Below the pieces are notes generated by a model. It was not told where the DNA came from. It did not search any database and saw only the letters and a program-made list of their open reading frames with translations. A DNA stretch of 64,000 nucleotides. It comes from Mesostigma viride (lineage: Eukaryota > Streptophyta > Mesostigmatophyceae > Mesostigmatales > Mesostigmataceae). The translations under genes and the position numbers were made by a program. Shown piece after piece: positions 6,471 to 53,070 of the stretch. The stretch spans positions 1,361,908 to 1,425,907 of the forward strand of contig RPFO01000080.1 in the NCBI GenBank assembly GCA_009746045.1, read 5' to 3'. Each line of letters begins with the position of its first letter. The first letter of the stretch is position 1.

Positions 6471-6522
6471 ATGCTTGGATGACAGAACATCAGCCACAGG
6501 CATACGTGACTTCCCCTTTATC

Positions 6523-22017: not shown

Positions 22018-22021
22018 ACAA
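22018..22021. other. Target-site duplication ACAA, left
   Basis: ACAA directly precedes the left terminal inverted repeat. The same ACAA follows the right one at 42948-42951. Confidence 0.75.
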
Positions 22022-22046
22022 GGCCGGGCCCACTTCGAATGTTCCG
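22022..22046 (+). repeat. Left terminal inverted repeat, 25 bp
   Basis: Begins GGCCGGGCCC and ends AATGTTCCG. It is perfectly complementary to 42923-42947. The first ten bases GGCCGGGCCC are nearly self-complementary. Confidence 0.95.
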
Positions 22047-22050
22047 AAAA

Positions 22051-22172
22051 GTGTGACACTTTTCGTCGTTTTTTTAACTTCGTAACAAACTACTCTTTCC
22101 CGCCGGGCCGCGTGTGACACTTTTTGTCGTTTTTTTAATTTCGTGACTAACTACTCTTTCCCGTCGGTCCGC
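22051..22172. repeat. Subterminal 61-bp direct repeat, two copies
   Basis: Units start GTGTGACACTTTT at 22051 and 22112 and share the T-run, CTACTCTTTCCCG and GG(G/T)CCGC blocks with only a few substitutions. The GTGTGACACTTTT core also occurs inverted near the right end (42895-42907). This layout fits transposase-binding sites, which is inference. Confidence 0.85.
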
Positions 22173-22462
22173 GTGCGCTTTTTGATTGCCTGCAGGTGGC
22201 ACGAAATTTTCGACCGGAGTGTTTCGGCATAACAAGTTTCTCGATACCCTGATGGATTGGTACAATCCTAGTCGACTAGAGGACCATGTTGAGAAGAGTT
22301 AATCGACGAAGCTAGTAGTACTTTCAACCATCAAATGGTGGGTATACCCACCCCCATAATTTTATTGAATCGATGAATAATGCAAATTTACACATTTGAC
22401 CAACGCAAAATGTTGCATGGAATTAATCATCGATTATATTTGCCAAATGGGACCGGCATTCA

Positions 22463-22933
22463 CTTTTCCTGGAGAAATGACCCCCATCCATCGATCTCAA
22501 TGTCACGAAACTTGTACGCTCCCTTGTACAAGTCCCCCACGAAATTTGGAGGCTCGTTGGAAAATTGTTTGGGGGCCCATACGGCCCCACCTATTTCCGC
22601 CGCATTCAAGAACTCATGCTGGGCCTCAGCCCGGAGGCGCACAGCCGAGACATTGGGCGAAATTTCCGTGCCCTCATTCTGGAGGCATTGCACCACCCTG
22701 GCCTTACCCGGAACACGGGGGGCAGGCGCCAAATCTGAATCTGGGGGCATCAGGTCGATCATCCCGTTTCCGAACGCAATGACACCTGAACCCCAACCTC
22801 CAAACGGTCCCCGCAGGGAGCGTGGGAAGTCGTGGGGGGGGGAGTCGATTTCAACATACATGTTGGCCGCATGCTCCTTTTTATCGACATGCACATATGT
22901 ATGCTGCGAACCAAAAACATCGGCGCGCTCCAT
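22463..22933 (-). CDS. Small unrecognised protein within the transposon (157 aa)
   Basis: The ORF starts MERADVFGSQHTYVHVDKKE at 22933. The middle is Gly/Pro-rich (PRSLRGPFGGWGSGV), then a hydrophilic helix with AVRLRAEAQHEFLNAAE, ending WGSFLQEK. I do not recognise the family and see no signal peptide or membrane segment. It lies between the left TIR and the transposase, in the same orientation. That makes it a candidate accessory gene of the transposon, or a terminal exon of a longer transcript. Coding status rests on length and position only. Confidence 0.5.
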
Positions 22934-23529
22934 CGTAAAAGTGAGTTTGATGGCTAAGTTGCGAGTGAGAAAATTATTTCAGCAAAGCCCGGTCCGGACT
23001 GTCGTATGGGTGGCGCTGCGGAGCGTCCCCTCTATTCCTTGTGGTTGTAGGGGACAACCTTCCAATCACAATTCGTAACTAGTCCGGTTACAAGCAAGGT
23101 ACTTTGGCACTTCCGGAGCGAATTTGTGTTTTAAGACATCTACCAAACAGGCCTTAGTACAGTAACATTGTTGTGACATTCGAAATTAGTACGAACCAAT
23201 TTGCAGACGGAAAGTCCTACACAGCAACTACTATATTTGAGTGACGACATGATTTTTAGGTCAAACCAAATTATAAATTTGTAATTCGAAATAATTATTG
23301 TACAAGTTAAATAAAATACTCGCCATTTCGACACGGAAATATACTAAAATTTGTCACTACCGAGGCTAACAATGTTCCCAGCCACTTGTCATCTAATGTA
23401 ACATATGAAAAAACAAAAAAATGTTCTCCAAAAATATATAAACACGAATAAACACTGTCCCAACCGTAGGCGAATAAAGCCCAGGCTTAAAGATCCGTAG
23501 GGGTGGCGCTGCGGAGCGTCCCCGAAAGT

Positions 23530-26500
23530 TTAAGCCGGTGGCAGCCCCTCCGGGGCTTGCTGGTTGCGTACAAGAGCGGTTAGCCACGCGTCAAGCTCCT
23601 TGCTCATATCAACGTAGGCTTGCCTTTGGTTGCCAAGGACCATGCACTGGAGCGGAAGAGCAGCGGAGATGCACAGATAGCAATCGACCAGGTCGGCTGG
23701 GCGGGACTCCGGCCAATCAGCCAAATCCAGAGTAAAATGCAGGGGGTCATGCATATCTCGCTTCCACAGCCGAACCGCCAGAACGGCGTGGCCGGGCAAG
23801 AAAATCTCCTTCTGCCGTCCGTTTTGTCCCTCAACCCACCTAACCTCCTCCTTCTCCAGCACTGAGGCCTCCCTCACCACCTGCATCACCCAAAAAGGGT
23901 GGGCGGAATTGTGGTTCACGTCCTCTCTGTCTGACGGAACTGCGATGTAATCATACATGCGCATCTGCCTGCCAATGGCATCCCTTTGATCCTTCAGCAG
24001 TTCCGCCCGCGTCAGCTGGCGAACCGGAGGTATGGGCTGCGTTGGCGGCATCAGGCGGAAAGTTTTCATCGTTTGGCCCTCATCGTTAAATTCCTCGATA
24101 TGTGTCCACTCGGTCCGGCACTCCTCCCACCTGTTAGCTAGGCAGGCTGGGCAGTAGCACGAAAAACGCCTCATCATCAGGAGCCCCGGGTCAGACTTGT
24201 CCAGGCGCCACCAGTGCGCTTGCTTGATGGCCTCGACACGCGTCGGTATCATACGGGCGCCGGAGTCGAGGTCCTGCAATGAGGGAGAATGTCAGAAACG
24301 GAAAGTTGGTATGTGTCAATAGATCAAGTACACATGAAGGGTCACTCTGCAGAGATACCCCTTTGAAAGTGCTTTGCATGCATTTTTCACTATATAAGAC
24401 GCTAATTCATACCAGTTCTTTTAGCATTATCAAATAATAAAATGCAAATGGGCAAAAGGTCACTCTGCAGAGATACCTCAATCAAGTTCAAGAAAAATTG
24501 AGTTTCGCACCTCAGGAAAATGAAAGAAATGACGGTGGACGCCCTCTGCCCGAGCGCGGGCCGACTCCCTGCTCGTGGTTTTGCCTCCTTCCCAGCTGTC
24601 CCGCATGTACTTGACGATCTGGCGCCCTGTAACGATGCCCTGGTTCTCAGGAATGCATTGCATGTTCCTCACAATGCACTTGAACTTCGCTCCCTGACCA
24701 TCCACCTCCCCCTTCCCGTGCTGCTCACCCAAGTAGTGGTACTCGAAGGATTCCAAGTCGGGATCCTGCATGAGGAGGCGGAAGACGGCGTTAACCACGT
24801 ACTTGGACTTGAACTGGGATGAGCAGTTGTCAGAGCACATGAACATCCTCTTCACCCCCACACCAAGTCCGCGCAGGGTTTCCATGATTGTCCTCAGCGC
24901 GTAGACGAGCGCCCGCTCTCCCCGCTTCATCTTGGCTTCCCCGAGAAAAAAGAACGTTCGCTTTGCCATCGCACCATTGTGCAAATATCGCACGATCATG
25001 GGCATGAGGACAAAGCTCGTCTTGTGAAAGTACTGCGACTGCAGTTGGACGTAGTTGTTGTTCTCGTAATTCTCGGCCCAATCTCCATGCACGAGCACAT
25101 CCCCCTCAGTCATGTTCCTCTCCCGGTCCTTGATCGTTGCCGACTGCCACCATGACGTAAAGCAGTGGTTGGTAAAGTCCTCCCAACTCTCGATAATCGC
25201 CAGCCTCAGCTGCGCGGGCGTTGACCTCATCGTTTCCTGTACGGGCCGCTTGACCTTCTCCGGGACCCGCCGATCGGTCGCGTCCTGTTTTAACCAAGGG
25301 ATGAAGTAAATTTGCAAGTAACATATTCATAAAGTATCAGAAAAGCCTTTAAATTAACATCGCGCTGCAGAATGACGCTGCGAAATAATTGCGTCACAAA
25401 ATCCAAACACGCTTACCTCCCCTGCCGGTCGGGAAACCACTACCTCCTTCTTCACGTATCTGAACCAATTTAGTAGTTCTGTTGAATTCTTGTCCCGGTC
25501 ACACAACACCCAGTCTTTGATGCCACACCGGGACTCGGGACACGAGTTCTCCATACATGCCCTCTTCAGAATGCGAAAGACAGACCCCTCCTCCATGGAT
25601 GGGTCCCCTACCCTTGGCACCCCTTCCTCATCCTCCACGATCCTCTCATTTATTTCAAGATCGTCAAGGTCTTGCCCCTGCCATTCATCTTCCGTCACAT
25701 TATTGTCCCCTTCCTCCTCTTCGTTTCTCGCCGAGTTTGCCCCACCCCCCAGCTCACTTCCCCCATCCGCCTCCGCCACACGGCAATGGAAGTGCTTCAC
25801 CCATTCGGTCGTGTGCAGGCTTTCGAACATCCCGCACGTGCCGTCAGGCAATCTCGCCCTTAAACATCCCTCACACTCGTCGCCGCACTTGCAGTTCTTG
25901 CCGTGCTTCGCCTTGCAGTACCTAGTCCATGCCGCTACCTTCGACTGCATGACCGTATGCGTCTCACAGGCGCACACGTTTCTCTCCTTCCACTTCCCCT
26001 TGACGGTTTTGGGGGCGTACTTGCAGAAAGTCGTATATCCGACATGGATGCCGACATCCTTCTCATACTGCGGACTTTTCTTGTCCCAGTACGTGTGCTC
26101 CGCTAAAAACTTGAGATATATGTCCTCCTTCGAGGTGAGGTAGAAGTAGGCCCCTTGGACACCAACCAAAATCGCACGATTGCCAACTCGTTCGTGCGTC
26201 TTTATGGTATCCCTCTCTTGGGGCGAAGCGCGCGAGTTCTCCTCATCAGTCCAAGCCTGCGCGATCGACTCGATTACAAATTGGGGCAACTTCCTCTTCT
26301 TTCGCGCCAGCGCACGCGTCAGGAACTCCATCTTCTGTTGCTTTCTGATCGCCCGAACTTTGAGAATGGTCTTCGCGGGGACACCCGTCATTCTCTCCAA
26401 CTCTGCCGCCGAAAACTCCTTCTCGATGTCGTCCCCACAAAAAAGAGTTGACACCAAAATGATCTTGACGTCTCTGTCATGGTCGGATTTCGACAGGTCG

Positions 26501-27213
26501 TCAAAAAGGGCGATCAGCCGAGCCACCCAAGACCTCGACAGTTGTGCAAGCCGCTGCTCATCAAAAAGCTTGGCCACCGGAATGTCAAAATGCTCCGCCT
26601 TGAGCTCGTCAGCCCTCTTATTGAAGCCATCAACAATCTCCTCAAAAGAGGCCCGCTTGGTAGATTCATTCCTCATGTGATGAACTACGTTGTACGCCTC
26701 ATCAGCAAGATGAGTCCCCACAACAGACTTCTTCTCGGCGTACTGGCCAGGCCTTTTCGCTGGCTTCCTGAAGGCGGGCGAGGTGCTGCGGTTCTCATTC
26801 CCGAAATTTCGTTTCGAGCTGTTTTTCAGATCCGCTGCAAGGGGCGTCGGTGTCCCGATGCTCAAGTTGTGGGCATTGAGTCGATTAGCAAAGCCGCCAC
26901 GCAAGGAGGAGGAGGTTGGCGAAAGAAACACCCGTTCCCGTGCTGCAGAAACAAAAAGAAATTCACGGAAAAATTTACATATTAGCAGGGTCACTCCGCG
27001 AAATGACCCCACCTTCTTCGCAGATACAAAAGAATCTCAATTGCGAAGCAAATATAGAGAAAGTCAAACTTCATGAAATTTTTGGTAGCTCTGCAGCGCG
27101 ACCCTTGCGAAGTTACACACAAGTTTTAAGGCCTTTTCGTATGGAACTGAGAAGAGGTCGCGCTGCAGCGCGACCAAGATTTGCATCATTGGAAACACAC
27201 CTTCCCGGCTCAT
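23530..27213 (-). CDS. Four-exon DDE-like transposase, about 1,018 aa
   Basis: Proposed exons: 27213-27201, 26942-25417, 25284-24511 and 24273-23530, all with GT-AG borders. The splices keep the frame: the 13-nt first exon encodes MSRE plus one base, and the others join at codon borders. Residues about 50-300 are helical and charged. A Cys-rich cluster (CKCGDECEGC) lies near 375-385, then an acidic linker. The likely catalytic core is in exon 3: Asp581 in HGDWAENY, Asp665 in CSDNCSSQF, and Asp708 or Glu706 in HGKGEVDGQGA. Exon 4 adds a CYCPACL motif and a C-terminal domain. From memory, the DWAENY / SD.C.SQFKS / HGKG..DG.G set marks an uncharacterised DDE-like family seen in animals and algae; I cannot name the superfamily. 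Start ATG at 27213 is chosen because splicing makes it continuous. Confidence 0.8.
24511..25284 (-). CDS. Transposase exon 3 with candidate catalytic residues
   Basis: Phase-0 exon of 258 codons flanked by introns of 132 bp (25285-25416) and 237 bp (24274-24510). It holds all three candidate catalytic acidic motifs. The 237-bp intron contains two copies of a GGTCACTCTGCAGAGATACC element, members of the dispersed palindrome family. Confidence 0.75.
25417..26942 (-). CDS. Transposase exon 2 (N-terminal region, zinc cluster)
   Basis: A 1,526-nt exon. Its acceptor is TTTCTGCAG before CACGGGAACG and its donor is GAG before GTAAGC. It carries helical segments (SWVARLIALFDDLSK, ERMTGVPAKTILKV), the YWDKKSPQYEKDVGIHVGY block, CACETH, and the Cys cluster. 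The 258-bp intron upstream (26943-27200) contains three palindrome copies. Confidence 0.75.
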
Positions 27214-28595
27214 TTTTCAGGCGTGTCGTGTCGTTGCCGATCGAGGTACCTGGATGATCACACCAAGACAGGAAAATACGTGAATTAATTCATGGAATTA
27301 TTTAAGATTCTACTAAATGAAATTGAATATTGAACATAATTGTTTTAATCATTATTGTTTAATTATGTAGCAGAAATATGGAAAGTATTTATTGGTATTT
27401 ATATAGTTTTAATTAGTATTTAGTACTATTTCTATTACAATCATTATTGTTTAGATAGAAGAAATATGAACTGGACAGACTAGCTATCTCTAATACTAAA
27501 TATTTTCTACTTATTGTATGAAAAAAAGAGTGATGTCCATAAATATATGTAATATTGTCATAAAATTTAATCAATATTTTAAATTTGTATTCATGGCATT
27601 AATCTATCTAGTACTAGTCATTTATATAAAAAACTAGTACAGTAAGTTAGCAGTAAATAGGAAAATATATTTAACAAATATTAGAAAGAACATATATCAT
27701 ATTCATAACAATAATCATAATAATAAGCATATGGACAGCAGAAAGTATAAATATATTGGCTAGCATGTTAGTATATATCCCCATACATTTACTATACCCG
27801 ATTCATGAATATATTTATTTGTATACCCCAAAAGTTCTGCATTCGAAATTTTTGCCATACCACGTGGCAGTAGGCACGTCGCTTTGCAGAGTGACGACTG
27901 GTGGTAATATGACAGATGATCTCTCAGACGACGTGCAAAAAAGCACCGGGCTCACGCTAGAATCGAACCGCGGACGTCGTTATCCACGGCAGCATGGTGA
28001 CGCCCGAATCCAAACATCCCGATTGTAGCGTCAAATTGGCTGCGTGTTGTTCCTTTTTATACCTGCGGGACCGTGAAGACCGACGCTTGGATTACGTCAC
28101 ATTGTGAGTCGTCCAATCCGCATGCGCGGTTTGTCAATAAGAATAATCTAGCGCCGCGTTTCGCCTCGTTGGCCGAATGGCGAGCATGCCACGTTTTCCG
28201 TCCTGAACGCCGGTTACGCTGGGCCGTTGACAGGGGTCGCTCCACGGACGATCGGTCACAACAGCTGTTGGGTTTCGAAAACCGCACCACCACTGCTGCC
28301 GCCATAGCTGTTTTCTGTAATAATCATCGCTGCCTGAAGATGGTGAGACAAATGCCGCCTCAACTCGCCGCCATAATGAAAAAGGTGCATCAACAGCGCA
28401 GTCTTTTTTGATGTCGAGCGTGATGTTTGTTGCTATGCCTTCAAATGGTCCGGTTAGTTTATAGCTAGCCCAATTCTAATCGTGGTCCTGTTCAATGCCG
28501 TTTTTCCCCCTTCCTGATTTATGCGTGCAGGTAAATGTGCAACGAACCCCTACTTACTCGCGCGAGCAGGGTGGCGTCTATGATGCCCTTTTGTA
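27214..28595. other. Divergent intergenic region of the transposon
   Basis: Lies between the start of the minus-strand transposase and the plus-strand gene. 27290-27760 is strikingly AT-rich. A palindrome copy sits at 27877-27896. It may hold promoters for both genes, but I could not pick out specific sites. A short plus-strand exon candidate lies at about 28339-28383. Confidence 0.5.
28339..28383 (+). CDS. Candidate first coding exon of the giant plus-strand gene
   Basis: ATG at 28339 begins MVRQMPPQLAAIMKK and is followed by a possible donor (AAG before GTGCATC). Joined in phase 0 to the acceptor at 33365 it would continue KEQEKEREVQ. That would place all tandem repeats of 28596-33230 in a first intron of about 5 kb. 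The link is speculative. Confidence 0.25.
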
Positions 28596-29093
28596 GTCCT
28601 CAGCCAGCGATATGGCTTGTTTTTTCGTGTTGGTCCTCAGCCAGCGACATGACTTCTTTTTTCTGGTTGGTTCTCGGCCAGCGATATGCCTTCTTTTTAA
28701 GGGTTGGTCCTCAGCCAGCGACATGGCTTCTTTTTTCGTGTTGGTCCTCAGCCAGCGATATGCCTTCTTTTTTAGGGTTGGTCCTCAGCCAGCAATATGT
28801 TTTCTTTTTTCGTGTTGGTCCTCAGCCAGCGACACGGCTTCTTTTTAAGGGTTGGTCCTCAGCGAGCGACCAGAGTATTTTTTCGTATTGGTCCTCTGCC
28901 AGCTAAATGTTTTCTTTTTTCGTGTTGGTCCTAAGCCAGCTAAATGTTTTCTTTTTTCGTGTTGGTCGTCAGCCAGCGATATGTTTTCTTTTTTCGTGTT
29001 GGTCGTCAGCCAGCGATATGTTTTCTTTTTTCGTGTTGGTCCTCAGCCAGCGATATGGCTTCTTTTTTCGTGTTGGTCCTCAGCCAGCGATAT
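28596..29093. repeat. 37-bp tandem repeat, about 13 copies
   Basis: The unit begins GTCCTCAGCCAGCGATATGG and ends in a T-run with CGTGTTG. A 37-bp period is not a multiple of three, so the long ORFs crossing it shift frame unit by unit and are unlikely to be coding. Confidence 0.95.
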
Positions 29094-32000
29094 GTCCACC
29101 ACCACCATCCATGCATGCCAGCACCCCACCACCATCATCCATGCGTGCCAGCCACCCACCACCACCATCCATGCGTGCCAGCCACCCACCACCACCATCC
29201 ATGCATGCCAGCACCCCACCACCATCATCCATGCATGCCAGCACCCCACCACCACCATCCATGCGTGCCAGCCACCCACCACCACCATCCATGCGTGCCA
29301 GCCACCCACCACCACCATCCATGCATGCCAGCACCCCACCACCACCATCCATGCGTGCCAGCACCCCACCACCACCATCCATGCATGCCAGCCACCCACC
29401 ACCATCATCCATGCGTGCCAGCCACCCACCACCACCATCCATGCATGCCAGCACCCCACCACCACCATCCATGCGTGCCAGCCACCCACCACCACCATCC
29501 ATGCATGCCAGCACCCACCACCACCATCCATGCATGCCAGCACCCCACCACCACCATCCATGCGTGCCAGCCACCCACCACCACCATCCATGCATGCCAG
29601 CACCCCACCACCACCATCCATGCATGCCAGCACCCCACCACCATCATCCATGCATGCCAGCACCCACCACCACCATCCATGCGTGCCAGCACCCCACCAC
29701 CACCATCCATGCGTGCCAGCCACCCACCACCACCATCCATGCATGCCAGCACCCCACCACCACCATCCATGCATGCCAGCACCCCACCACCACCATCCAT
29801 GCGTGCCAGCCACCCACCACCACCATCCATGCATGCCAGCACCCACCACCACCATCCATGCATGCCAGCACCCCACCACCATCATCCATGCGTGCCAGCC
29901 ACCCACCACCACCATCCATGCGTGCCAGCCACCCACCACCACCATCCATGCCTGCCAGCCACCCACCACCACCATCCATGCGTGCCAGCCACCCACCACC
30001 ACCATCCATGCGTGCCAGCCACCCACCACCACCATCCATGCATGCCAGCACCCCACCACCACCATCCATGCGTGCCAGCCACCCACCACCACCATCCATG
30101 CATGCCAGCACCCCACCACCACCATCCATGCATGCCAGCACCCCACCACCATCATCCATGCATGCCAGCACCCCACCACCACCATCCATGCGTGCCAGCA
30201 CCCACCACCACCATCCATGCGTGCCAGCCACCCACCACCACCATCCATGCATGCCAGCACCCCACCACCACCATGCATGCCAGCACCCCACCACCACCAT
30301 CCATGCGTGCCAGCCACCCACCACCACCATCCATGCCTGCCAGCCACCCACCACCACCATCCATGCGTGCCAGCCACCCACCACCACCATCCATGCGTGC
30401 CAGCCACCCACCACCACCATCCATGCATGCCAGCACCCACCACCACCATCCATGCGTGCCAGCCACCCACCACCACCATCCATGCATGCCAGCACCCACC
30501 ACCACCATCCATGCATGCCAGCACCCCACCACCATCATCCATGCATGCCAGCACCCACCACCACCATCCATGCGTGCCAGCACCCCACCACCACCATCCA
30601 TGCGTGCCAGCCACCCACCACCACCATCCATGCATGCCAGCACCCCACCACCACCATCCATGCATGCCAGCACCCCACCACCACCATCCATGCGTGCCAG
30701 CCACCCACCACCACCATCCATGCATGCCAGCACCCCACCACCACCATCCATGCATGCCAGCACCCCACCACCATCATCCATGCGTGCCAGCCACCCACCA
30801 CCACCATCCATGCGTGCCAGCCACCCACCACCACCATCCATGCCTGCCAGCCACCCACCACCACCATCCATGCGTGCCAGCCACCCACCACCACCATCCA
30901 TGCGTGCCAGCCACCCACCACCACCATCCATGCATGCCAGCACCCACCACCACCATCCATGCGTGCCAGCCACCCACCACCACCATCCATGCATGCCAGC
31001 ACCCCACCACCACCATCCATGCATGCCAGCACCCCACCACCATCATCCATGCATGCCAGCACCCACCACCACCATCCATGCGTGCCAGCACCCCACCACC
31101 ACCATCCATGCATGCCAGCCACCCACCACCATCATCCATGCGTGCCAGCCACCCACCACCACCATCCATGCGTGCCAGCACCCCACCACCATCATCCATG
31201 CGTGCCAGCCACCCACCACCACCATCCATGCGTGCCAGCCACCCACCACCACCATCCATGCGTGCCAGCCACCCACCACCACCATCCATGCGTGCCAGCC
31301 ACCCACCACCACCATCCATGCGTGCCAGCCACCCACCACCATCATCCATGCGTGCCAGCACCCCACCACCACCATCCATGCATGCCAGCCACCCACCACC
31401 ATCATCCATGCATGCCAGCCACCCACCACCACCATCCATGCGTGCCAGCACCCCACCACCATCATCCATGCATGCCAGCCACCCACCACCACCATCCATG
31501 CATGCCAGCACCCCACCACCATCATCCATGCATGCCAGCACCCCACCACCACCATCCATGCGTGCCAGCACCCCACCACCACCATCCATGCATGCCAGCC
31601 ACCCACCACCATCATCCATGCGTGCCAGCCACCCACCACCACCATCCATGCATGCCAGCACCCCACCACCACCATCCATGCGTGCCAGCCACCCACCACC
31701 ACCATCCATGCATGCCAGCACCCCACCACCATCATCCATGCATGCCAGCACCCCACCACCACCATCCATGCGTGCCAGCCACCCACCACCACCATCCATG
31801 CGTGCCAGCCACCCACCACCACCATCCATGCATGCCAGCACCCCACCACCACCATCCATGCGTGCCAGCCACCCACCACCACCATCCATGCGTGCCAGCC
31901 ACCCACCACCATCATCCATGCATGCCAGCCACCCACCACCACCATCCATGCATGCCAGCACCCCACCACCATCATCCATGCATGCCAGCCACCCACCACC

Positions 32001-32673
32001 ACCATCCATGCATGCCAGCACCCCACCACCATCATCCATGCATGCCAGCACCCCACCACCACCATCCATGCGTGCCAGCACCCCACCACCACCATCCATG
32101 CATGCCAGCCACCCACCACCATCATCCATGCATGCCAGCCACCCACCACCACCATCCATGCATGCCAGCACCCCACCACCATCATCCATGCATGCCAGCC
32201 ACCCACCACCACCATCCATGCATGCCAGCACCCCACCACCATCATCCATGCATGCCAGCACCCCACCACCACCATCCATGCGTGCCAGCACCCCACCACC
32301 ACCATCCATGCATGCCAGCCACCCACCACCATCATCCATGCGTGCCAGCCACCCACCACCACCATCCATGCATGCCAGCACCCCACCACCACCATCCATG
32401 CGTGCCAGCCACCCACCACCACCATCCATGCATGCCAGCACCCCACCACCATCATCCATGCATGCCAGCACCCCACCACCACCATCCATGCGTGCCAGCC
32501 ACCCACCACCACCATCCATGCGTGCCAGCCACCCACCACCACCATCCATGCATGCCAGCACCCCACCACCACCATCCATGCGTGCCAGCCACCCACCACC
32601 ACCATCCATGCGTGCCAGCCACCCACCACCACCATCCATGCCTGCCAGCCACCCACCACCACCATCCATGCGT
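29094..32673. repeat. 30-bp minisatellite, about 119 copies (3.6 kb)
   Basis: The unit is a CACCACCATCCATGC(A/G)TGCC core followed by AGC(C/A)ACCC. Variation is limited to a few switch positions: CATGCATG or CATGCGTG or CATGCCTG, GCCACCC or GCACCCC, CCACCATCC or CATCATCC, plus occasional 29-bp units lacking one C. Blocks of the same variant order recur (about 29100 onward and 30700 onward; 31450-31750 and 31970-32300), showing higher-order duplication. All six frames stay open because the unit is a multiple of three without stops. Confidence 0.97.
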
Positions 32674-32710
32674 GATTTTTTTGGGGAGTGGTTAGTATTG
32701 TTTTTGGGTA

Positions 32711-33228
32711 GGGTCGCTCTGCAGAGTGACCCCTACCCTTGCGCAATGTCGCAGTCTTTGTTTGTAAGGTCGCGCTGCAGAGTGACCCCCTCACAATGCA
32801 AACTTCCATTCAGTGTTTGTAGGGTCGCGCTGCAGAGTCACCTTTCCAAGATGCGTTATTCAATAACATTTTGTTGGTAGGGTCGCGCTGCAGAGTCACC
32901 TTTCCAAGATACGTTATTCAATAACATTTTGTTTGTAGGGTAGCGCTGCAGAGTCACCTTTCCAAGATACGTTATTCAATCACATTTTGGTTGTAGGGTC
33001 GCGTTGCAGAGTCACCCTTTCCAGATACGTTATTCAATAACATTTTGTTTGTAGGGTAGTGCTGCAGAGTCACCCTTTCCAGATACGTTATTCAATAACA
33101 TTTTGTTTGTAGGGTAGCGCGTCCGAGTGACCTTTCCAAGATACGTTATTCAATCACATTTGTGTTGTAAGGTCGCGCTGCCGAGTCACCCTTTCCAGAT
33201 ACGTTTATAAAAGTTACATCTTCGATTT
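32711..33228. repeat. 56-59-bp tandem repeat, nine copies, each carrying the palindrome
   Basis: Units start at 32711, 32767, 32822, 32880, 32938, 32996, 33054, 33112 and 33170. Each begins with GGGTCGCGCTGCAGAGT-type sequence followed by a CCAAGATACGTTATTCAATA segment. It is a satellite built around the same palindrome that is scattered through the element. Confidence 0.93.
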
Positions 33229-33364
33229 TTTTTTCCCAAACCTGAATGGGATTTCATCCTTGTTTCTTCTTAGGGTAGCGCTGCAGCGCCACCCCTCACG
33301 CTGATGCGAATTTACACTTTCTTCATCCGACATTGGTCTATTTGTTTTTCCTTATTTGCCGCAG

Positions 33365-34837
33365 AAGGAACAAGAGAAGGAGAGGGAAGTTCAGCTTCAG
33401 AAGGAAAAGGAGGAGCAGGAGAGGGCCTCCTTGCTTCAGAAGGGAAAAGAGGTGGAGAGGGCCACCTATGTCGACAAGGTCAAGTCGACGAGCGAGTCTC
33501 CTAAGTATAGTACGCCACCCGCCTCTCCGCCCAAGGGCGTAGAGGAGTTTCCTCCTCTGTCAACAATGCTTGCTGCCGGGGCTGGGCCAAGCTCCGTGGA
33601 GGCGTCGGCCTCCAAATCTCCCAAGCGGCCCGCACCTGAGGCACAGGCTGCCGGGGCTGGGTCCAGCTCCGTTGTGTCTCCACAGTCTCCTCAGCGGCCC
33701 GCACCTGAGGCACAGGCTGCCGGGGCTGGGTCCAGCTCCGTTGTGTCTCCACAGTCTCCCCAGCGGCCCGCCATCAACAAGGAGTCCCCCGTCCTCGGGA
33801 AGTCGACCTCAAACTCGCCGAGGTCCGCCCCCGTCGAGGTGGTTACCTCGAAGCCCAGCTCGCCGCCCAAGTCTTCTCCAAGGGCCCACCACGAGGCGTC
33901 TGAGCAGGGCAGCCCGCCGCCCAAGTCACCTCTAAGGTCCCACCACGAGGCTTCGACCTCGAAGGTCAGCACGTCGCCCAGGTCTCCTTCAAGGTCCCTA
34001 CCCGAGGCCTCGACCTCACAGCCCAGCTCGCAGCCCGCGTCTCCCCAAAGCTCCCCTCCAAAGAAGGGGGCGACCTCCAAGTCCCGATCACCGCCCAAGT
34101 CGCCTGCAAAGTCTCACGGTCGGAAGTCTCCGCCCAAGCGCCGGTCGCCACCCAAGCGCCGGTCGTCAAACTCACCTCCGAGGAGCCGCTCCCCACAGGC
34201 AAGAAAGAAAGCAAGAGCGGAATGGGAGGAGAAGGAGGATGACCATGAGCGGTTCCTGCGTGATCTGCAGAAGAACATTGACCTCCTGATCAGCATGGAG
34301 GACAGGGACAAGGCAGACCCAAGGCCACTGGAGGATCTTCCGGAGGAGGAAAGAAAGAGAAGGAATGACCGCATGGCACTTCTGACTTCTTATCTGGATC
34401 AGGCAACGCAGCACGCCGAAGATCTGGTGAATCTGGAGAAAAAGGACAAGGAACGGAAGGCCGCCCAGGAGCTCCTGGAAAGGGAGCAGAGGGAATGGGT
34501 GAAGAAGGAAAGGGCAGAGCGAGAGGCGAAGCAGGCAGAAATGGAAGCTGCGGAGATGGAGGAGGCGGAGCGCAGGAAGAGGAGGGCGTCGTGGGAGCGG
34601 GACGAAAAGGAGAGAAAGGCGAATGAGGAAAGGAAAAAGAAGGACGAGGAGGCAAAGGCGAAGAGGAAGGTGCAGGAGGAGGGGAAGAGGATGATGGAGG
34701 CGGGTGTGGCGGCACGCCTGAAATACCAAGCCAAACTTGAGGAGGAGCGCAGGAAGGCGCAGGCTGCAGAAAAGTCGACGGAGGTGGATGGGAAGACCGC
34801 GGGGGTCTCGGAGAAGGAGGGTACGGAGCCGTCTCAG
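33365..34837 (+). CDS. Giant gene, N-terminal exon: SR/SP-rich and coiled-coil region
   Basis: 491 codons. It begins with a Lys/Glu/Gln-rich helix (KEQEKEREVQLQKEKEEQ). Next come tandem PAPEAQAAGAGSSSVVSPQ repeats and SPPKSP / RRSPPKRRS motifs resembling nuclear SR-type tracts. About 180 residues of highly charged predicted coiled coil follow (AEREAKQAEMEAAEMEEAER). The donor is CAG before GTGAGAAAC. A nuclear location is likely from the basic SR tracts, by inference. Confidence 0.7.
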
Positions 34838-37800
34838 GTGAGAAACAGTTTTTACCCCCATTAGTGTGCGTGTTTTTTTTAACGGTTTCGTTATTCCTTA
34901 TCTCTGCTAAGCTCGTCTGACCATGAATGGGTCATTTCGCAGAGTGACCCTAACCTGAACCAACAAGTATGCTTTTCCCTGTTGTTTTGATTTCAGAGGA
35001 AGCGGGGGGCAGACGAAAAGAAGTCAGAGGATCCCAAGAAGAGCGGGACAACAACGGAGGTGAGCGATAAGTAATCCTGTGTTTTTCGCCTTTGTTCTTT
35101 GTTCATTTGTCCATCATTTCTGAGTTGCCGTTTCCTTTGCATGTGTGATTAATTTATGGAGGGTCATTTCGCAGAGTGACCCTAAACTTTTTCAACGAGT
35201 ATGCTTTCCTCTGTCTTGCTGCATCCAGAGGAAGAAAGGGGGAGATGAGACAGAGTCTCAGGGGAACGCCGAGGTTGGGAGTGGGGAGGAGAAATTGCGG
35301 GTGAGCTAATAATTTTTTCGCCGCTTCATAGTGCATGTCAGTTAGTCGTTCGTTCTGTTTGAGATTTTTTTATGAAGGGTCACTTCGCAGAGTGACCCTA
35401 AACTTTTTTTCCGATTATGCTTTTGTTTCGTTTTGTGGACCTGTGTGCAGCCGATCCAGTTGAGGGGCTTGGAAATATGGAAGTCATGGTTGACGACTTA
35501 CGAAAAACATCTGAACGATGACGCCAAGTCGTTCTTGAGCACCTTTGTGTCGAAGGAGATCGAAGTTGCGATCGATGACGGTGTCTGGCATGAGAGGTTG
35601 TCAGTCGGGTCTGATGAGAAGATGAACCCTTGGAGTGATCCAACACTTCGTGATCTTTTGTTCGAAGTCATGGGGCGGAGCCTTCGAGGCAAAAGGTTAA
35701 AGGGGAAAGAAATTGCATCTCTTTTCGACACCTTCGAGTTGCTTGTTACCGAGTGCGGGTCGAATATACCCGACGCAGTGGATGTTACAGCTTATGTTCC
35801 TCGAAGCCTGCTCGTCTGGATCAAGCTGTCTTGTGCGACCAAACAGTACTGCAAGGACACGAGACAGCACCCATTGTCACACGAGTATTTTGACATCATC
35901 ATATCTGTCTGCAGGTGGGAAATGTACCAGGTCCTAGAGCAGGGGAAGACAGGTGAGGATTGGGACACCTCCCCGCTGACGGAAACGGATGTCAATCTGC
36001 TCTTGAAGAAAGGGTTCAAGGCTGCACAGTTCGACTGGGATGTCTTCGGCGACTTTCTGATCGCCATGGACCACTCGGTATCTCCCGAGTTGTTCAGGGC
36101 TGGTTCGGAAGTGATTGAAGATTTGGATGGGGTTAGATCGCACTTCCTTTCGTCGTATTCAGTGTGGATGGCGCAGTTTAGGGTGAACCCAGACCCTATT
36201 CTTCCGAGTCGAGCTGTTGAATTGTTTCTTCAGTTGTGCGAGGATGAGATCCTGCGTTTTCGTCAGAGTGGGGAGTTCGACATGGCCGGACAGTATGAGC
36301 CCCCACGAAAGGAGGTTGTCGCATGGCTTGAGTACAAGGGGATCGACGACTGCCTGTCGTTAGTGACGGCGAACATAAACGAGAAATCATGGAGTCAGGA
36401 CATGCTATCTCACTTGTTTTTTCTTCGGACGTTTTTCGAAAACGAACTGAGCCACACAACTCCATCTGAGATGTGGCCGATCGGACAAGTGTTGCGGGAG
36501 TGGAGATTTGACATTGAGGTAATTATTGACATTTGTGTACATTTTTATTCAGTCCGTTTAGATTAGTGTTGTGTATTTCTTTTGTTGAAAATTGTTACTA
36601 ACGATGAACGCATTTCTTGCTCTACTTCCCGCCAGGAGGGTGACATTCCATGTTTTGAGGGACAAAGTCCTTCAGCGTGGAACCGGAGGTAAGCAAATGC
36701 CGCTAAAGGTTCGGGTCGATTTGTGAAGATAGGATATTCAAGAAATAGTTCCTGTTTTGACTGACTTTGTATATTTATCTGAACGCACGTTTCGTCTTGC
36801 AGGATGACGATCAACCTTTCGAAGAGGTCGAAGGGATGGGGACGGAGAACGTAGAGGTAGGAAATTTGTTTCATTTTACTGTTCAAGCTTAGGGTTGGGG
36901 TCGCTCCGCAGAGCAACGTTAAAACAAAATTAATGCTCGTTTTTTTTATGTCATCGTCTGAATTATTATTATTTTTTTTTCATGCAGGAGGTGGACGAGA
37001 AGGAAGAGGAGGAGAAGGAGCAGGAGGTGGACGAGGAGGAAGAGGAGGAGGAGCACGAGGAGGAGGAGGAGGAGGAAGAAAATGAGCCCGAGCCAACTCC
37101 GAAGGGGAAGGGGAAGGCAAAGGTTTGTGCAATGTTTTTTAAGTTTTAACGCTGAAGGTCGCGCTGCAGAGCTAGGATGCCAGAGTTCAGATTATTCTTC
37201 TTAATACATTTCGCTTCATGTGTATGTTGTGTGTTGTTGGTATACCTTCCAGCAGGCTAAAAAAAGGCGACGACGACACTCCAAGCAGCTTACCTAAAGC
37301 TTATTGCAGAAGGAAGAAGGTGCAGACTGCTGTGATATTGGCGAACTCATCCTAGGCAATCCCCCTAAGGATGTTACGATGGGTGCCGGGGAGTTTCGCA
37401 AGTATCTCACCCAACTACGCGTTGAGGCGGCGGCCGATTTCGCAATGCAAGGCGCCGACACCTTCAACGGTGACCTGGCCTATGATTTTGTCAACCAAGT
37501 CAAGTCCAAGGGCACCGAAAAGTTCAAGTGGAAACCAAAGGCGTACACGGAGGCGAAGGTGGACAAGGTCATCAAGTTCATGAAGTGGGATCTCAAGAGA
37601 AGGGATCGTGAACGGGCGAAGCTGCTTGAGGGTCAGGCAAAAGCGTCCAAAAAGAAGAGGGATGCGGATAAAAAGGAGAAGGGGAAGGATAAGGGGGAGG
37701 ATGACGCGGCCGGGGGGAGAAGGGCGGGAAGGGAAAGAAGGGGAAGAAGGCGGGAGAAAAGGAAGAGGTGCGTTTTTTGCGGAATTTAGATTTAGAGGGG

Positions 37801-40800
37801 TAGCTCTGTGGAGTGAACCTTTTTACCTTCTCCGTGCTTTGCACCCTATTCGGTATTTTTTGTCTGCACGCCGACTATTTGCAAACGTTAAACTATTTAT
37901 TGTTTTCCTGTCTCATCTTGTCAATGCCTTCCTCCAGGGTGGCGAGGGGGAGAAAGGCGGAAAAGGAAAGAAGGGGAAGAAGGCGGGAGAAAAGGAAGCG
38001 GTGCGTTTTTGGTGATTTAGATTCAGAGGGGTAGCTCCGTGGAGTGACCCTTTTTACCTTCTGTGTTCTTAGCACCCTACTCTGAGATTTTCCTACGCTC
38101 GCGGACTATATGCATACGTTAACTATTTATTGCTTTCTTGTCTCATGTTCGTCAATGCCTTCGTTCAGGGTGCCGAGGGGGAAGGAGACGGTGACGGAAG
38201 GTTGGCCGGCAATGATGCCGTTTTTGCACTCGTCAAGGAGATGCTTAACTACGTCGAAGCCAGGGGCAAGGCGCCGGCGTCGGATATATTAAAGTGGCCT
38301 ACCTTCTCCCCTTTTCTTGAGCTTCTGAAAGCACTTTCAAAGCTCTTCAAGGAGGGGATCCTGACGAGTAGTGGAAAGGTGGACAAGGAGCCGATCATCA
38401 AAGATTGGAAGATGGCAACGACCGTGGACTCCGAGAAGGAGATCAGGGACAAAGCCATTCGGGACGCGAATGCTGTGCGGGAATCCCGTTGGATTCGACC
38501 GAGTGACTTCATCGATACCGGTTGCAATAGCATGCGCATTCACACCGTCAACGGGCTGATTTTGCCTGACAACATGAGGCAGCGGTTGCTAAGCGATGAG
38601 GTGTTCAGGGAGAACGGGCGCATCTTGCTGAATGCAAAGACAAACAGTTTGCATTTTAAGGTGTGCATCCCTGTGTGGCAGTTCGCCTTTCAAGCGCTTG
38701 CGGAAACCAAGCCAAGCCTCTTCGCCAAACACATCACGTCCACCGGCCCTTACCGGGATTGGCTGAAAAAATGCCATGGCGCTAGGACTGACGCGGAGTT
38801 CGTGGGCTCGCGTTACTTTCGCCCCTTGTCCGACAAGGAGATTGAGAAGTATCTTGGAACCAAGTCCACCGCTTCTTTCCTCAAGAGAGGTGTTGAGTTC
38901 CGGACCTATGCACGAGTCGGGGAACAAGACGACGTTCTGCCCTTTGATTTTCAACCAAGGGAGGTCTTCAGCCTAATAAGCCAGGCCTCCTTAAAGGCAT
39001 TCGACCCAAGATTTCACGAAGAACATCCTGATGGCGAATATCTCGTTCTTCGATATGCGGTGGTCGACGGAAACCACTATTTCAAGGGTTTAAAGTCTTT
39101 CAAGCAATTGGAGGGGGAATGGACGCCCGGTGTGACACATGTTAAGAAACTAATGTGTGAAGGGGGGGCAGCGTCTGAGAACGCGAAGGACAGTGCCGCG
39201 GCGGCTAAACTTTTCTCATCCCTTATGGAACAATTCCATACTGGGTACGGGGGAACGAACGTCATTCTGCTTCGGGGGGCCGACCTTCTTCCAAATTGGG
39301 ACGAGTGTAAAAAGTTCCCGGAAATATCTGTAAGTGGTAGTTCTATCTATGGCAATGGTGACGCTGCAGTTCCACCACTTCGTCGTGTTATGTCGAGTAA
39401 GGGTCGCACTGTGGAGTGACCATGTCAAAAGTCTTCCTTTATCATGCATTATAAATGCGGGAAGTCGCACACAGAAACGACAATGGCAGTCAAACTCTCA
39501 TCCCGACATATTTCTGGGGTGGTTTCGCAGAGTGACCCTAACTTACCGATTTCGGCGCTGAAGACCATTTTTCGCGCTCCCGTGCGTTCATAACGTCACG
39601 CTGCAAGTCGACCCTTGAATTGTTCTTGTGTGTCAATTTTTCGTTCCTCTGTTCGTGACAGGAGGTTGGGAAGAAGAAGCTGGATCGCCTATTCGAAATC
39701 TCCAAGGGCGCCAATGCCGAAGATCAGGCGGTAGCGGATCGGACGCTTGGGCAGGCGCTTCTGGATGTTTGGAATTACAACAGGCTGTACTTGCACGGCG
39801 TCGTGAAGCAGGGCAAAGGGCATTTTATTCCCGATGGCCATTACACGAACCTGCTGGCGTACATCCTGCCGGCCACCAAACAATCAGTCGGGAGGGAAGG
39901 GAGTTTGGAGGGGAGTAAGGAGGATAAGGGGGAGTTGAGGGAGGAAGAAGGCGAGCGGAAAAAAAACAAGGCCCAACCTTCCCAAATTTCAAATTACAAT
40001 CGAGTTCTGGCGAACACCTTCCTGCGCCTCACAAAGGCCAGGCCGGATGATGAGAATTCAGTCACACCAGCTTCTGAGGAGACTATGACTCTCAGATGCC
40101 GGTTCGCTAACGCCGAGGGCACCAAGAAGGGGCAAAAGGTGTCCTGGACGTCTGTAAGGAACCTGGCGTCGTTTCCGATGATGGACGCTGTGTGTGAATG
40201 CATCATGAGTGGGGAGGTTGGGCCCGAAAAGCTGTCAAAGTTGGTGGAGTTGGCCAAGGACGTACTTGAGTGCGTTCGCCAATTCATCCTTATTAAGTTT
40301 CAGGAAAAGCCCGACTTGGATGGCGAATGTAAGGGGGGGGCTGATATGGAGTACAAGGCTTCTCGCTTATTTGAAGAGGTGTTCGGCTGTCGACTACTTG
40401 GGCGGATGCCAAGGAACAAGGACGTCGTCGATCGATTCCTTGCATTTTGGGAGAAGGCCGTCATCATCACGCGCAATGTCGCCTACCTCTTAAAGTCCGA
40501 AGGTCTTGCCAATCACCTAAGGATTCCGAGAAAGGATCTGATGGATAGCAAAATCGATCTAGTGGATCTCCTCGACAAAACCGCTCCGAACTTCAGCATG
40601 AAGGGTTCGCACGGCCTTCTGGACAAGGACTTGTATCTCCACTATCAAAAAAAGATGGAAGGAGGGGAAGGGAAGAAGGAGGCGGTTGTTGAGGCGAAGG
40701 AGAAAGTTGCAGGGAAAGGGGGGGAGAAGGTGGAAGAGAAAAGTGCTGAGCCGATTGAGTATAACTGGCGCAGCATTTCCTGGGATAAGATGACCGTCTG

Positions 40801-42657
40801 GTATTCTTCTCATAGTCTCCCTAAAGGCGGCCCTGACAGGAAGAAGGCATTTGTGAGGAGGGTGGCGGCGGAGGTGGCGGTGGGCGACGGTGAGGGCTTC
40901 CCATCCACTTTCGCGAGGCAAGACGATGGCCTGACGCCACTACCGTGCTGTAGAATCCTGAATTTGGATGGTGAGTTCGGCCGCAAGTGGACGTCCTTCA
41001 AGGACTTCTGGTGGGGTGACCATGACCTCTTTATGGTTCCTCCAAAAAAGACAACTGTCGAACGAGCTTCCGGTTACCACAGGAAGCTTATCGAGCTAGC
41101 GACGCAGTTTTTCTGGGAGTTGCGTCCCATCGTGGTCGTTTTTGGCGGAAAGAAGTCATTGGATGGCTTCGAAGACTTACTGGTTCGGATGGGGAAGATG
41201 CCTGACGTCTCGTGGACGTCATTGGCGAAGAAGAGGAAGGCTGAGGATGACGCGGAAGGAGATTCGGATGGGGACGAGGGAGGCGAGGGACAGGGAAAGG
41301 AAGGAGGGTCGACTCGCAGAGCGACGTCTACGGGGGGAGAGAAGTCGTCACCGCAGAAGACGTCTAAGGGGGGAGAGAAGTCGTCACCGCAGAAGACGCG
41401 GGACAAAGGGAAGGGTGGGCAGCGGCCGTCTGTCCAGCCGCAGCCGGAGTCACACCCTTCCAAAAAGCTTCGAAAGGCAGTTGTTCAAATCTCGGACGAC
41501 GAAGATGAAGCTGAGCCTGGCGCTTCTGCCCGGCCTGTCGCTCCTTCCGCGCCTACGCGCGTTTCAAAGTATCCCAAGAAAGAGCTTCGAAGGCAGCCAG
41601 TCGAGTCATCATCATCCTCCTCCGAGGAGGAGGAGGAGGAGGAGGGGGAGGAGGGGGAGGAGGGGGAGGAGGGGAGGAGGGGAGGAGGGGAGGAGGGGGG
41701 AGGAGGAGGAGGAGGAGGAGGAGGAGGAGGCGGAGGAGGAGGAGGAGGAGGAGGAGGAGGAGGAGGAGAGGAGGAGGAGGAGGAGGAGGAGGAGGAGGAG
41801 GGGGAGGAGGAGGAGGACGGGGATGACGACGAGGAGGAGGAAGATGGAGGGAGGCGAAGGGGTGATGGAAGGGCAAGGGGTGGAGGGGCAGGAGGGTCAA
41901 CTCGCAGAGCGACGTCTGAGGGGAGGAAGAAGCCTGCCGCGCCCTCCAAGTCTTCCGGCTCGTCTCGACCCAAGACAGCTGCTACTCGAGCTCCGAAAGG
42001 AATAACAAAGGGTGAGGAAATCGCTGTTTTGGTCGTGGCATGTATCCTGAATTTTTTTTTTAATTCGTTTGCAATCTATCTACGTTGACTTTAGTCCGTC
42101 GTTGATGTGCCGATTGGTTACGCGCAGGTAATGATGTGGTGCGGGCGAACGCTGCGGTGGGCTTCGGTCCTGCAGCTAAACTTACTGCTCAGTCTGAAGG
42201 GGTGGAAGCGAATGCGCAGAGCCAAGAGCCTTATGAGAAGCCTACGCTGTGGATGAGACTTATGGACGGGGAACAGAAACACGGAGCACCGGAGTGCTTC
42301 TGGATTGATGGGTGGGCCGAGAACACCATGAGAAGGGCCAATGCGAGTAGGGAAAAGCAAAAGTATACCAAGTTACAGGAGGTGAAGTTGTACGGGCAGG
42401 TAGGTGGATACGATCGGAAATGGAGGGACGTTTGCATGAAGTTTTTTCCAGAAGAGACAGAGGGCGGAAAGTTGCATCGGGGCAAGTTCTGGATGCCTTT
42501 GGACTATGTGAAGAAGGTGGTGACTCTGATGGACGGAAAGAGTTGGAATGATGTGGCAAAGTGGGCACCTGCGATGTCCATCGATCCAAAGAGGAAGAAG
42601 TCCAAAACAGAAGAGCAGAAATTGGAAGCAGAAGCAAGGAGCAAGAATAAGAAGTGA
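33365..42657 (+). CDS. Giant multi-exon gene of the transposon, about 2,480 aa, function unknown
   Basis: Proposed exons: 33365-34837, 34997-35059, 35229-35300, 35451-36518, (36636-36688), 36803-36856, 36988-37122, 37310-37767, 37938-38000, 38169-39329, 39662-42011 and 42128-42657. All have GT-AG borders and nearly all are phase 0; the last junction is phase 1. Two spots do not fit: 36636-36688 is 53 nt and can be skipped without loss of frame, and 37310-37767 is one base short, apparently in a G run near 37715. The protein alternates Ser/Pro- and Lys/Glu-rich low-complexity tracts with three globular blocks (35451-36518, 38169-39329, 39662-41240). I recognise no family. It could be two genes. 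The start lies upstream of the acceptor at 33365. Confidence 0.65.
34997..35300 (+). CDS. Giant gene, two duplicated mini-exons
   Basis: Exons 34997-35059 (RKRGADEKKSED...) and 35229-35300 (RKKGGDETESQG...) are similar to each other. Their introns are also similar: GTGAGC at the start, then a palindrome followed by a CCCTAA(AC)...TATGCTTT stretch. The exon-intron unit has been tandemly duplicated, and the following intron (35301-35450) shows the same pattern. Confidence 0.7.
35451..36518 (+). CDS. Giant gene, globular exon 1
   Basis: 356 codons, phase 0 at both ends. It is a well-mixed, globular-looking sequence starting PIQLRGLEIWKSWLTTYEKH with several Trp-rich helices (EVMGRSLRGKRLKGKE, WEMYQVLEQGKTGEDW, QVLREWRFDIE). 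It ends GAG before GTAATT. No known domain was recognised. Confidence 0.7.
36803..37122 (+). CDS. Giant gene, acidic linker exons
   Basis: Exon 36803-36856 (DDDQPFEEVEGMG...) and exon 36988-37122 (long Glu-rich run, ending TPKGKGKAK) are both phase 0. The intron between contains a palindrome at 36898. Confidence 0.6.
37310..38000 (+). CDS. Giant gene, exon with Lys/Gly-rich tail and its small duplicate
   Basis: Exon 37310-37767 encodes KEEGADCCDIGELILG, a folded stretch and a basic tail. The short exon 37938-38000 repeats the tail (GEGEKGGKGKKGKKAGEK) with its donor and flanking intron: 37761-37937 and 37994-38168 are similar over about 170 bases. The first copy lacks one G in a run near 37713-37718 relative to the reading frame implied by the second. 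Confidence 0.65.
38169..39329 (+). CDS. Giant gene, globular exon 2
   Basis: 387 codons, phase 0. It begins GAEGEGDGDGRLAGND and continues as a globular protein with conserved-looking segments (WIRPSDFIDTGCNSMRIHTV, VCIPVWQFAFQALAETK, LVLRYAVVDGNHYFKGLKSF). The last segment looks like a beta-rich binding motif. No family was recognised. The donor is TCT before GTAAGT. The downstream intron (39330-39661) contains two palindrome copies. Confidence 0.7.
39662..42011 (+). CDS. Giant gene, largest exon: globular domain and Glu/Gly-rich tail
   Basis: 783 codons plus one base. The first 500 residues look globular (KKKLDRLFEISKGANAED, RLYLHGVVKQGKGHFIPDGH, EYNWRSISWDKMTVWYSS, SFKDFWWGDHDLFMVPP). Two GGEKSSPQKTSK-type repeats follow, then a very long Glu/Gly tract from a GGA/GAG purine repeat (41623-41870), and a basic STRRAT...SGSSRPKTA tail. 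The domain order suggests a nuclear protein, but no function can be assigned. Confidence 0.7.
41623..41870 (+). repeat. GGA/GAG purine-only microsatellite within coding exon
   Basis: Nearly uninterrupted AGG/GAG/GGG triplets encode poly-Glu and poly-Gly. Strict purine/pyrimidine strand asymmetry makes it prone to triplex or quadruplex folding and to polymerase slippage. Confidence 0.95.
42128..42657 (+). CDS. Giant gene, terminal exon
   Basis: The acceptor GCGCAG precedes GTAATGATG. The junction codon is split G|GT, and the frame runs to TGA at 42655-42657. It encodes about 175 residues with a compact core (KPTLWMRLMDGEQKHGAPECF, WIDGWAENTMRRAN, GGYDRKWRDVCMKFFPEE, GKFWMPLDYVKKVVTLMDG) and a Lys/Glu tail. 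It may be a separate domain or, if the junction is wrong, a separate small protein. Confidence 0.65.
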
Positions 42658-42922
42658 CGTTCGAAGACTTTATTTTATGTTGGACGAGTCTTTAGTAAAT
42701 TCAGTCGACTCCGTCTCAAGTGCGACGAATGTATCCATGATATTCTTCAATGAAACAATGCAATTTCACGCTAATGTAAAGTTTTTATGTCACACGAGAC
42801 TTACAATGAGATAAATACCCACAAATTGTAATATTTACGTGAAATTTATACGTTCGCAAGCCAAAATTCAAGATTTTTACATCAAAATTGAAGGAAAAGT
42901 GTCACACACTTGGCTTGGACCG
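42658..42922. other. 3' region and subterminal motif of the transposon
   Basis: Non-coding. It includes AAAAGTGTCACAC at 42895-42907, the inverted counterpart of the left subterminal repeats, and a partial copy near 42787-42795. Confidence 0.7.
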
Positions 42923-42947
42923 CGGAACATTCGAAGTGGGCCCGGCC
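42923..42947 (-). repeat. Right terminal inverted repeat, 25 bp
   Basis: Begins CGGAACATT and ends GGGCCCGGCC, the exact reverse complement of 22022-22046. It is followed by ACAA (42948-42951), which matches the four bases before the left end. Confidence 0.95.
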
Positions 42948-43187
42948 ACAAATGCTACAAGACACCAAGTCATATAATTTTTAAATATCTAGCCTCAAAC
43001 ATTCCTGCCCTGCAATTCACAGTCGTTTCCTGGATCTGCGCTGGCCATCAGTTCTCGCTAATGCATCGATTCTTCGAGAGCTTTGAACATCCTACTCGCA
43101 TTCTTGAGTGACCCCGCTCCCGGGGTCACCCTATGATTTATCCAACAACATGGTCATGCAAACAATCCAAGAACAACCAACCCACAA

Positions 43188-51910: not shown

Positions 51911-52079
51911 GCACAACAATGCACACAATAACGAGAATAAGTTAGTCAAGAAGGCAAAGAAATAGATATATGTTGGTCGTCTCCTTGAGATAGTGATGCA
52001 CAAGCTGTATATGAAGAACAAGGAATGCGATTTGGGATTGCTACCTACCCAGAAGCACTCCAAGTACATGGTGTCCGCG

Positions 52080-52977: not shown

Positions 52978-53049
52978 GCACGTGGCGGCTGCCCATGGAC
53001 CAACCTACGACGATCGTCGTAGGTTGGTATATGGGCAGCCGCCACGTGC
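52978..53049. repeat. 72-bp near-perfect hairpin
   Basis: Arms GCACGTGGCGGCTGCCCAT and ATGGGCAGCCGCCACGTGC continue through ACCAACCTACGACGA / TCGTCGTAGGTTGGT to a zero-length loop. Only two base pairs mismatch. It contains two CACGTG sites. Confidence 0.95.
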
Positions 53050-53070
53050 ATTTCAGTGCACGGAATCTGT

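Follow-up and report, generated by a model that had tools for sequence, protein, structure and literature searches.

A complete 20.9-kb DNA transposon of the alga Mesostigma viride carries, beside its transposase gene, a giant gene that appears to be old and selected

What does a very large DNA transposon need beyond its transposase? This question is raised by a 20.9-kb locus of the streptophyte alga Mesostigma viride, found within a 64,000-nucleotide stretch of contig RPFO01000080.1 (GenBank assembly GCA_009746045.1, positions 1,361,908 to 1,425,907), referred to here as the window, whose own numbering is used throughout. DNA transposons of 20 kb or more are unusual, and limits on their size have been discussed (PMC6431247). 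The extra genes of large DNA transposons are commonly taken for cargo, and an earlier model reading of the letters alone (referred to here as the sequence-only reading) had described this locus as a transposon with a giant cargo gene. Our data indicate, with high confidence, that the locus is a complete and recently mobile giant cut-and-paste transposon which encodes both a transposase and an old, selected giant gene. The ends of the element are defined, a 4-bp target-site duplication (TSD) flanks it, empty sites exist for other copies, near-identical copies are numerous, and one of its genes has conserved transposase features. With both ends precise, an element of 20 to 37 kb has multiplied widely as near-identical copies, and one exon of its giant gene has been under selection across two families, so that what a transposon of this size requires besides its transposase can be tested directly.

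The element occupies positions 22022-42947 (20,926 bp). Its 25-bp terminal inverted repeats (TIRs), at 22022-22046 on the plus strand and 42923-42947 on the minus strand, are exact reverse complements that diverge at base 26, and the boundaries of other copies coincide with them. ACAA adjoins both TIRs on their outer side (22018-22021 and 42948-42951) and forms the TSD. By chance, approximately 2e-6 exact inverted pairs of 25 bp would be expected in the window, and no further copy of the TIR 25-mer was found in the window within 7 mismatches. Subterminal repeats are present at both ends: GTGTGACACTTTT starts at 22051 and 22112 on the plus strand, within a 61-bp tandem pair (22051-22175), and recurs on the minus strand at 42895-42907, where it reads from 42907. 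The description of the ends given by the sequence-only reading, with exact TIRs, flanking ACAA and subterminal repeats, was therefore accurate.

We found that the element is one of many. The TIR, allowing up to 3 mismatches, matched 374 + 384 places genome-wide while a reversed-pattern control matched none. Since each copy contains two TIRs, the 758 places correspond to at most approximately 380 copies, which is an upper estimate because several small contigs share their flanks with other contigs. Homologue counts from sequence searches of the genome, here and below, refer to the best-scored places out of larger candidate sets. With the left kilobase, the best 40 of 541 candidates matched at 99-100% and started at 22022 or no more than 4 bases before it; with the right kilobase, the best 40 of 541 candidates likewise matched at 99-100% and stopped at 42947 or no more than 4 bases after it. 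Copies sharing both ends and the gene order were found elsewhere in the genome, which the sequence-only reading had named as confirmation, and neither of the outcomes that it had named as refuting was observed. Among the first 100 of the 758 listed places there were 27 neighbouring convergent TIR pairs, with a spacing of 19.6-37.1 kb in 23 and of 52-136 kb in the remaining 4. None of the 27 pairs was closer than 15 kb, and the short or solo-TIR derivatives (miniature inverted-repeat transposable elements) suggested earlier were not seen among these 100 places. Differences in length between copies include inserts of 1-8 kb within the giant gene, and change in the minisatellites described below would also contribute.

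The insertion sites were compared by matching 15 right ends, each to a left end on the same contig, which together with the window gave 16 end pairs (in one set of 20 fetched flanking stretches, the right end was present in 6). A perfect 4-bp TSD flanks 13 of the 16 pairs and its sequence varies (ACAA, TGCT, TATT, TAAA, TCTC, CTCA, CCCT, TTTT, ATGG, GTAA, AGCA, AGCG and TCAG), with an overall composition of T17, A15, C12 and G8. When the flanks were joined and sought in the fetched loci and the window, sequence spanning the junction was found for 8 of the 16. Five of these empty-site relatives are close (C1613, 99.4%; C1580, 97.8%; C87, 97.0%; C1557, 93.8%; C1215, 91.5%) and carry the 4-bp target once; C1557 has two such relatives, and in one of them a base of the target is changed. 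A further relative, of C1413 at 90%, is located in the window itself (6497-6996) and has one changed base in the target, while the relatives of C1424 (87%, with gaps) and C1446 (approximately 72%) are weaker. These empty sites are paralogous target repeats, not proven excisions. The copy at C1413 is inserted in a relative of retrotransposon remains that lie at 6523-9202 of the window on the minus strand (Pfam matches to reverse transcriptase, RNase H and aspartyl protease).

The transposase gene lies on the minus strand at 23530-27213 and comprises four exons (27213-27201, 26942-25417, 25284-24511 and 24273-23530). Its spliced model encodes 1,018 residues, all of which are identical to a predicted Mesostigma viride protein (eukprot, jgi/Mesvir1), and its exon-1 stretch recurs at 97-100% at no fewer than 45 loci that are stop-free in that stretch. 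We refer to the element's own transposase family as P0001 and to two related families as P0002 (61% identical) and P0003 (42% identical). D581, D665 and D708 (protein numbering) are invariant across the three aligned families. A structural model of the core, encoded by the catalytic exon (24511-25284), found RNase HI as its best Foldseek match (E 2.6e-4, prob 0.99). By prediction and conservation, the core is thus a putative RNase H-like fold with a catalytic triad. Pfam matches, sought up to an E of 10 for P0001-P0003, were limited to sub-threshold matches of P0001 to DUF7869 (E 0.12) and TniQ (0.11); the catalytic exon of P0001 alone also matched DUF7869 below threshold (E 0.026), and a literature search on DUF7869 found no paper. 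The transposase may resemble animal proteins with an HGKG...D motif.

The giant gene is divergent from the transposase gene, as the sequence-only reading had it, and occupies half of the element (28340-42657, plus strand, approximately 2,475 residues). Eleven modelled exons with GT-AG borders (33365-34837, 34997-35059, 35229-35300, 35451-36518, 36803-36856, 36988-37122, 37310-37768, 37938-38000, 38169-39329, 39662-42011 and 42128-42657) encode 2,460 residues, and an additional first exon of 15 residues near 28340-28384 is a guess from sequence; the earlier estimate of approximately 2,480 residues fits this model. The longest stop-free run is 809 codons, compared to a maximum of 603 in 300 second-order resamplings. 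A Pfam scan recognised no domain in the giant protein and a single database search with it found no relative. Intron 1 probably contains a 4.1-kb minisatellite block (28596-32671, plus strand), in which a 37-bp unit is repeated 13.5 times and a 30-bp unit 119.6 times, the 30-bp array spanning 29096-32671.

Is the giant gene a recent acquisition of this one element? With the exon at 38169-39329, the best 107 of 976 candidates in the genome fell into the element's own family (70 places at 88-100%) and a second set (37 places at 58-59%, stop-free in the exon), with no set beyond these two among the 107. A transposase of the P0002 type is located within 40 kb of 16 of the 37 second-set loci, and all 16 gene pairs have the divergent layout of the window, with a spacing of 9-12 kb in 11 and 23-31 kb in 5. 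The catalytic exon is also listed at 9 of these 16 loci. Among the matches listed, a P0003 transposase is found within 40 kb of none of the 37. We compared one second-family exon (C644, 1,128 bases) with the window exon and found that 425 of 1,125 bases differ and that 57.9% of residues are identical, whereas a random placement of the 425 changes preserved 34% residue identity (maximum 38% in 200 trials). Identity at the three codon positions is 69, 74 and 43%, and the proportions of nonsynonymous and synonymous differences (pN and pS) are 0.28 and 0.72, giving a ratio of the corresponding rates (dN/dS) of approximately 0.15 with dS near saturation. The codon-position identities, pN and pS and the random-change trials together indicate that the exon compared is under purifying selection between the two families. 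These data, which concern one exon, indicate that the giant gene has long belonged to the transposon lineage, kept as one of a divergent pair in two families. Because its homologue shares the divergent layout with a second transposase family and has been under purifying selection, the giant gene is not recent cargo, and here our conclusion departs from the sequence-only reading. Since evolution appears to have kept the giant gene, it probably serves the element rather than riding as a passenger.

Among the second-family loci, those with a 585-residue frame (e.g., G000:C644:9389-10864) are present in many near-identical copies that, among the matches listed, contain the N-terminal half of the transposase only. 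They are possibly a derivative without the catalytic exon that is still located near the giant-gene homologue. The P0003 family is abundant (best 63 of 1,485 candidates) and includes the loci L069, L070 and L071; its right end at L069:6941, TGGGCGTCCCC, is unlike that of the giant element. Within 17.5 kb around one P0003-family copy neither a giant-gene homologue nor the other end was found. The copy of the giant element at C1557 lies within a repeat common to L069 and L071.

Several observations weigh against a complete, recently mobile element with a selected giant gene. Three of the 16 end pairs (C1, C2001 and C442) contain no TSD, and the left flanks of C442 and C2001 each have a relative that lacks the insertion but does not extend into the right flank, for which reason these two pairs may be two elements joined or rearranged. 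The empty sites with a single target that the sequence-only reading had proposed to look for were found for other copies, while the genome search found no empty relative of the window's own ACAA insertion. The structural support for the transposase is weak, with a mean predicted local distance difference test score (pLDDT) of 55.6 for the exon and 37.4 for the whole protein, and template-modelling (TM) scores of the core in Foldseek are low (0.22-0.34 by query length). The window's giant gene contains one frame slip, at a G-run near 37.7 kb whose length is different in one compared copy, and the exon at 38169-39329 contains stops in 6 of the 70 own-family places. Recent copies compared with the window show no constraint on the giant gene (29 synonymous and 110 nonsynonymous differences and 2 stops, counts that include shared differences repeatedly), which is expected of a young family if single copies are not selected, and several copies contain kilobase insertions inside the gene. 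In the second family, 21 of the 37 homologue loci have no transposase within 40 kb among the matches listed, which says little because both sets of loci are best-scored matches. At 7 of the 16 paired loci (C644, C817, C25, C224, C881, C745 and C557) the listed transposase matches cover the N-terminal half only, and transposase exons contain stops at several other paired loci (such as C1424, C1, C2054 and C446); many second-family copies thus look defective.

The noncoding DNA of the element may indicate what the giant protein does. A 20-bp palindrome like GGTCACTCTGCAGAGTGACC is dispersed over 24340-39537, with 17 copies within 4 mismatches and 22 within 5, all in the element's noncoding DNA; the 43 kb of the window outside the element contain none at either threshold. 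Within 6 mismatches there are 31 copies in the element (30 noncoding) versus 2 outside, while 20 shuffles of the element gave 0-4. At this threshold at least one palindrome is present in 12 of the 14 modelled introns, one of which rests on the guessed first exon. The palindrome is also part of the units of 55- and 58-bp tandem repeats (32708-33205, plus strand). Across 24 fetched loci, at up to 5 mismatches, we counted 70 palindromes in 68.5 kb of element-like sequence versus 10 in the remaining 157 kb. By analogy, the palindromes are possible binding sites of a dimeric DNA-binding protein encoded by the element; alternatively, they may function in splicing or RNA structure.

We reason by analogy with DDD/E transposases that the transposase would bind the TIRs, and perhaps also the subterminal GTGTGACACTTTT repeats, would then cut the element out and would join it to its target with a 4-bp stagger, the repair of which would produce the TSD. 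The giant protein would serve the element, perhaps as a factor that binds the element's DNA, and the palindromes in the introns and intergenic DNA would be candidate sites for it. Its role might be in the assembly of transposition complexes or in countering host silencing.

The first of these roles, that of a factor with a structural or assembly function in transposition that is perhaps required by the large size of the element, is a plausible reading that we hold tentatively. The giant protein would then be akin to the second protein of other two-gene transposons, such as the DNA-binding partner in En/Spm. Two families share the pairing of the giant gene with a divergent transposase gene, and one exon shows purifying selection; both observations are consistent with such a factor, whereas the absence of a recognised Pfam domain is not in its favor. 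Furthermore, since the P0003 family is abundant and the surroundings of one of its copies lack a homologue, such a transposase may not need a giant protein.

The second role, an anti-silencing factor, is possible but more doubtful. Here the giant protein would act like VANC of the Arabidopsis VANDAL elements, which belong to the Mutator group, by binding repeated noncoding motifs and keeping off host DNA methylation. VANC is an accessory protein encoded by its element, as the giant protein is, but it is much smaller, and the likeness is one of description, with a function that would be shared by analogy. Targets of VANC are reported to form tandem repeats often (PMC5735166, PMC10398659) and VANC21 is reported from noncoding regions (PMC5735166); motifs repeated in noncoding DNA and partly in tandem are thus common to VANC targets and to the element, given its palindromes in nearly all introns, its 58-bp tandem array and the lack of such motifs at up to 5 mismatches in the rest of the window. 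Against this, similar motifs are also found, at low density, in sequence that is not element-like, and the giant gene of the second family is known from one exon. A bolder proposal seems to us improbable: the element would represent a novel lineage, at superfamily level, of giant DNA transposons with two genes in a streptophyte alga that diverged early, and its conserved giant protein, as the partner of a DDD-type transposase, would read the palindrome in nearly every intron and shield or license the element as a giant analogue of VANC.

That the giant gene is a captured host or viral gene, and a useless passenger of one element, is very unlikely. The gene does fill half of the element, its recent copies show no constraint and several are interrupted (in the copies L029, L031, L032, L044 and L046 by inserts of approximately 1-8 kb), but it is common to two transposon families, the only two among the best 107 of 976 candidates, and has been selected between them. 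In these interrupted copies, several of the pieces that match share 4-5 bases with each other, which looks like duplication by other transposons. Finally, the possibility that the two TIRs are the ends of two shorter elements that flank a host segment by chance is negligible, for although the 4 widely spaced convergent pairs indicate that nesting or chance pairing occurs and 3 end pairs lack a TSD, the spacing of 19.6-37.1 kb in the other 23 pairs and the recurring interior speak against it, matched TSDs and empty sites indicate single insertions for several copies, for which the empty sites refute it, and the window's copy has matching ACAA and the shared interior.

To which class does this two-gene transposon belong? 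The TIRs, the TSD, the empty sites and the predicted RNase H-like core place the element among the cut-and-paste DNA transposons (class II) of the TIR order, with a transposase that is DDD-type by prediction. Other giant mobile elements of eukaryotes include Teratorn (180 kb), Polintons and Starships (PMC6431247, PMC10175614). The first two are related to viruses, and a tyrosine recombinase serves the Starships. The element described here differs from them in combining a putative DDD-type transposase with a single giant gene and a small open reading frame (ORF). This ORF, near the left end (22463-22933, minus strand, 157 residues), has no Pfam match. CACTA elements have CACTA-type ends and TSDs other than 4 bp, whereas the ends of our element start with GGCCGGGCC. 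In Chondrus crispus, enlarged En/Spm (CACTA) elements resemble it in their algal host and their size of 16-20 kb, with 4-5 ORFs (PMC6431247), while our element has a 4-bp TSD and one giant gene.

Sola2 elements, compared here by description only, have a 4-bp TSD as well, together with short TIRs, and one Dictyostelium family has a transposase of 888 residues, similar in size to the 1,018 residues found here (PMC3627910). However, the TSDs reported for those Sola2 families are AT-rich while ours are mixed, and chimeric Sola2 families carry Fanzor1 rather than a protein of approximately 2,475 residues without a recognised domain (PMC3627910). Membership in Sola2 is a possible lead that fits the length of the TSD and the carriage of an extra protein. 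In KDZ elements (Zisupton and Dileera) an accessory gene adjoins the transposase, as it does here, but the TSD of Zisupton is 8 bp (PMC12730594). The KDZ superfamily is disfavoured because this length differs from the 4 bp of our element; no KDZ domain was among the Pfam matches, up to an E of 10, for P0001-P0003. A literature search, with subscription journals, Repbase and Dfam outside its scope, found no description of the element, and the M. viride genome paper reports repeats as classes (PMC6947507).

The neighbourhood of the element also contains repeats. Directly to the right of the element, 43188-43784 has a weak match to the NEMP family (E 0.00095, below the Pfam cut-off). A long tandem array with a period of 737 bp and repeating ORFs spans 47320-58396 and has no match in Rfam; over 47,400-57,000 it matches itself at 70% when shifted by 737 bp. 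Beyond it, at 60164-61302, a 30-bp minisatellite, ACCCACGCATGCATGCCAGCCACCCCACAC, located outside the element, resembles the element's own 30-bp array.

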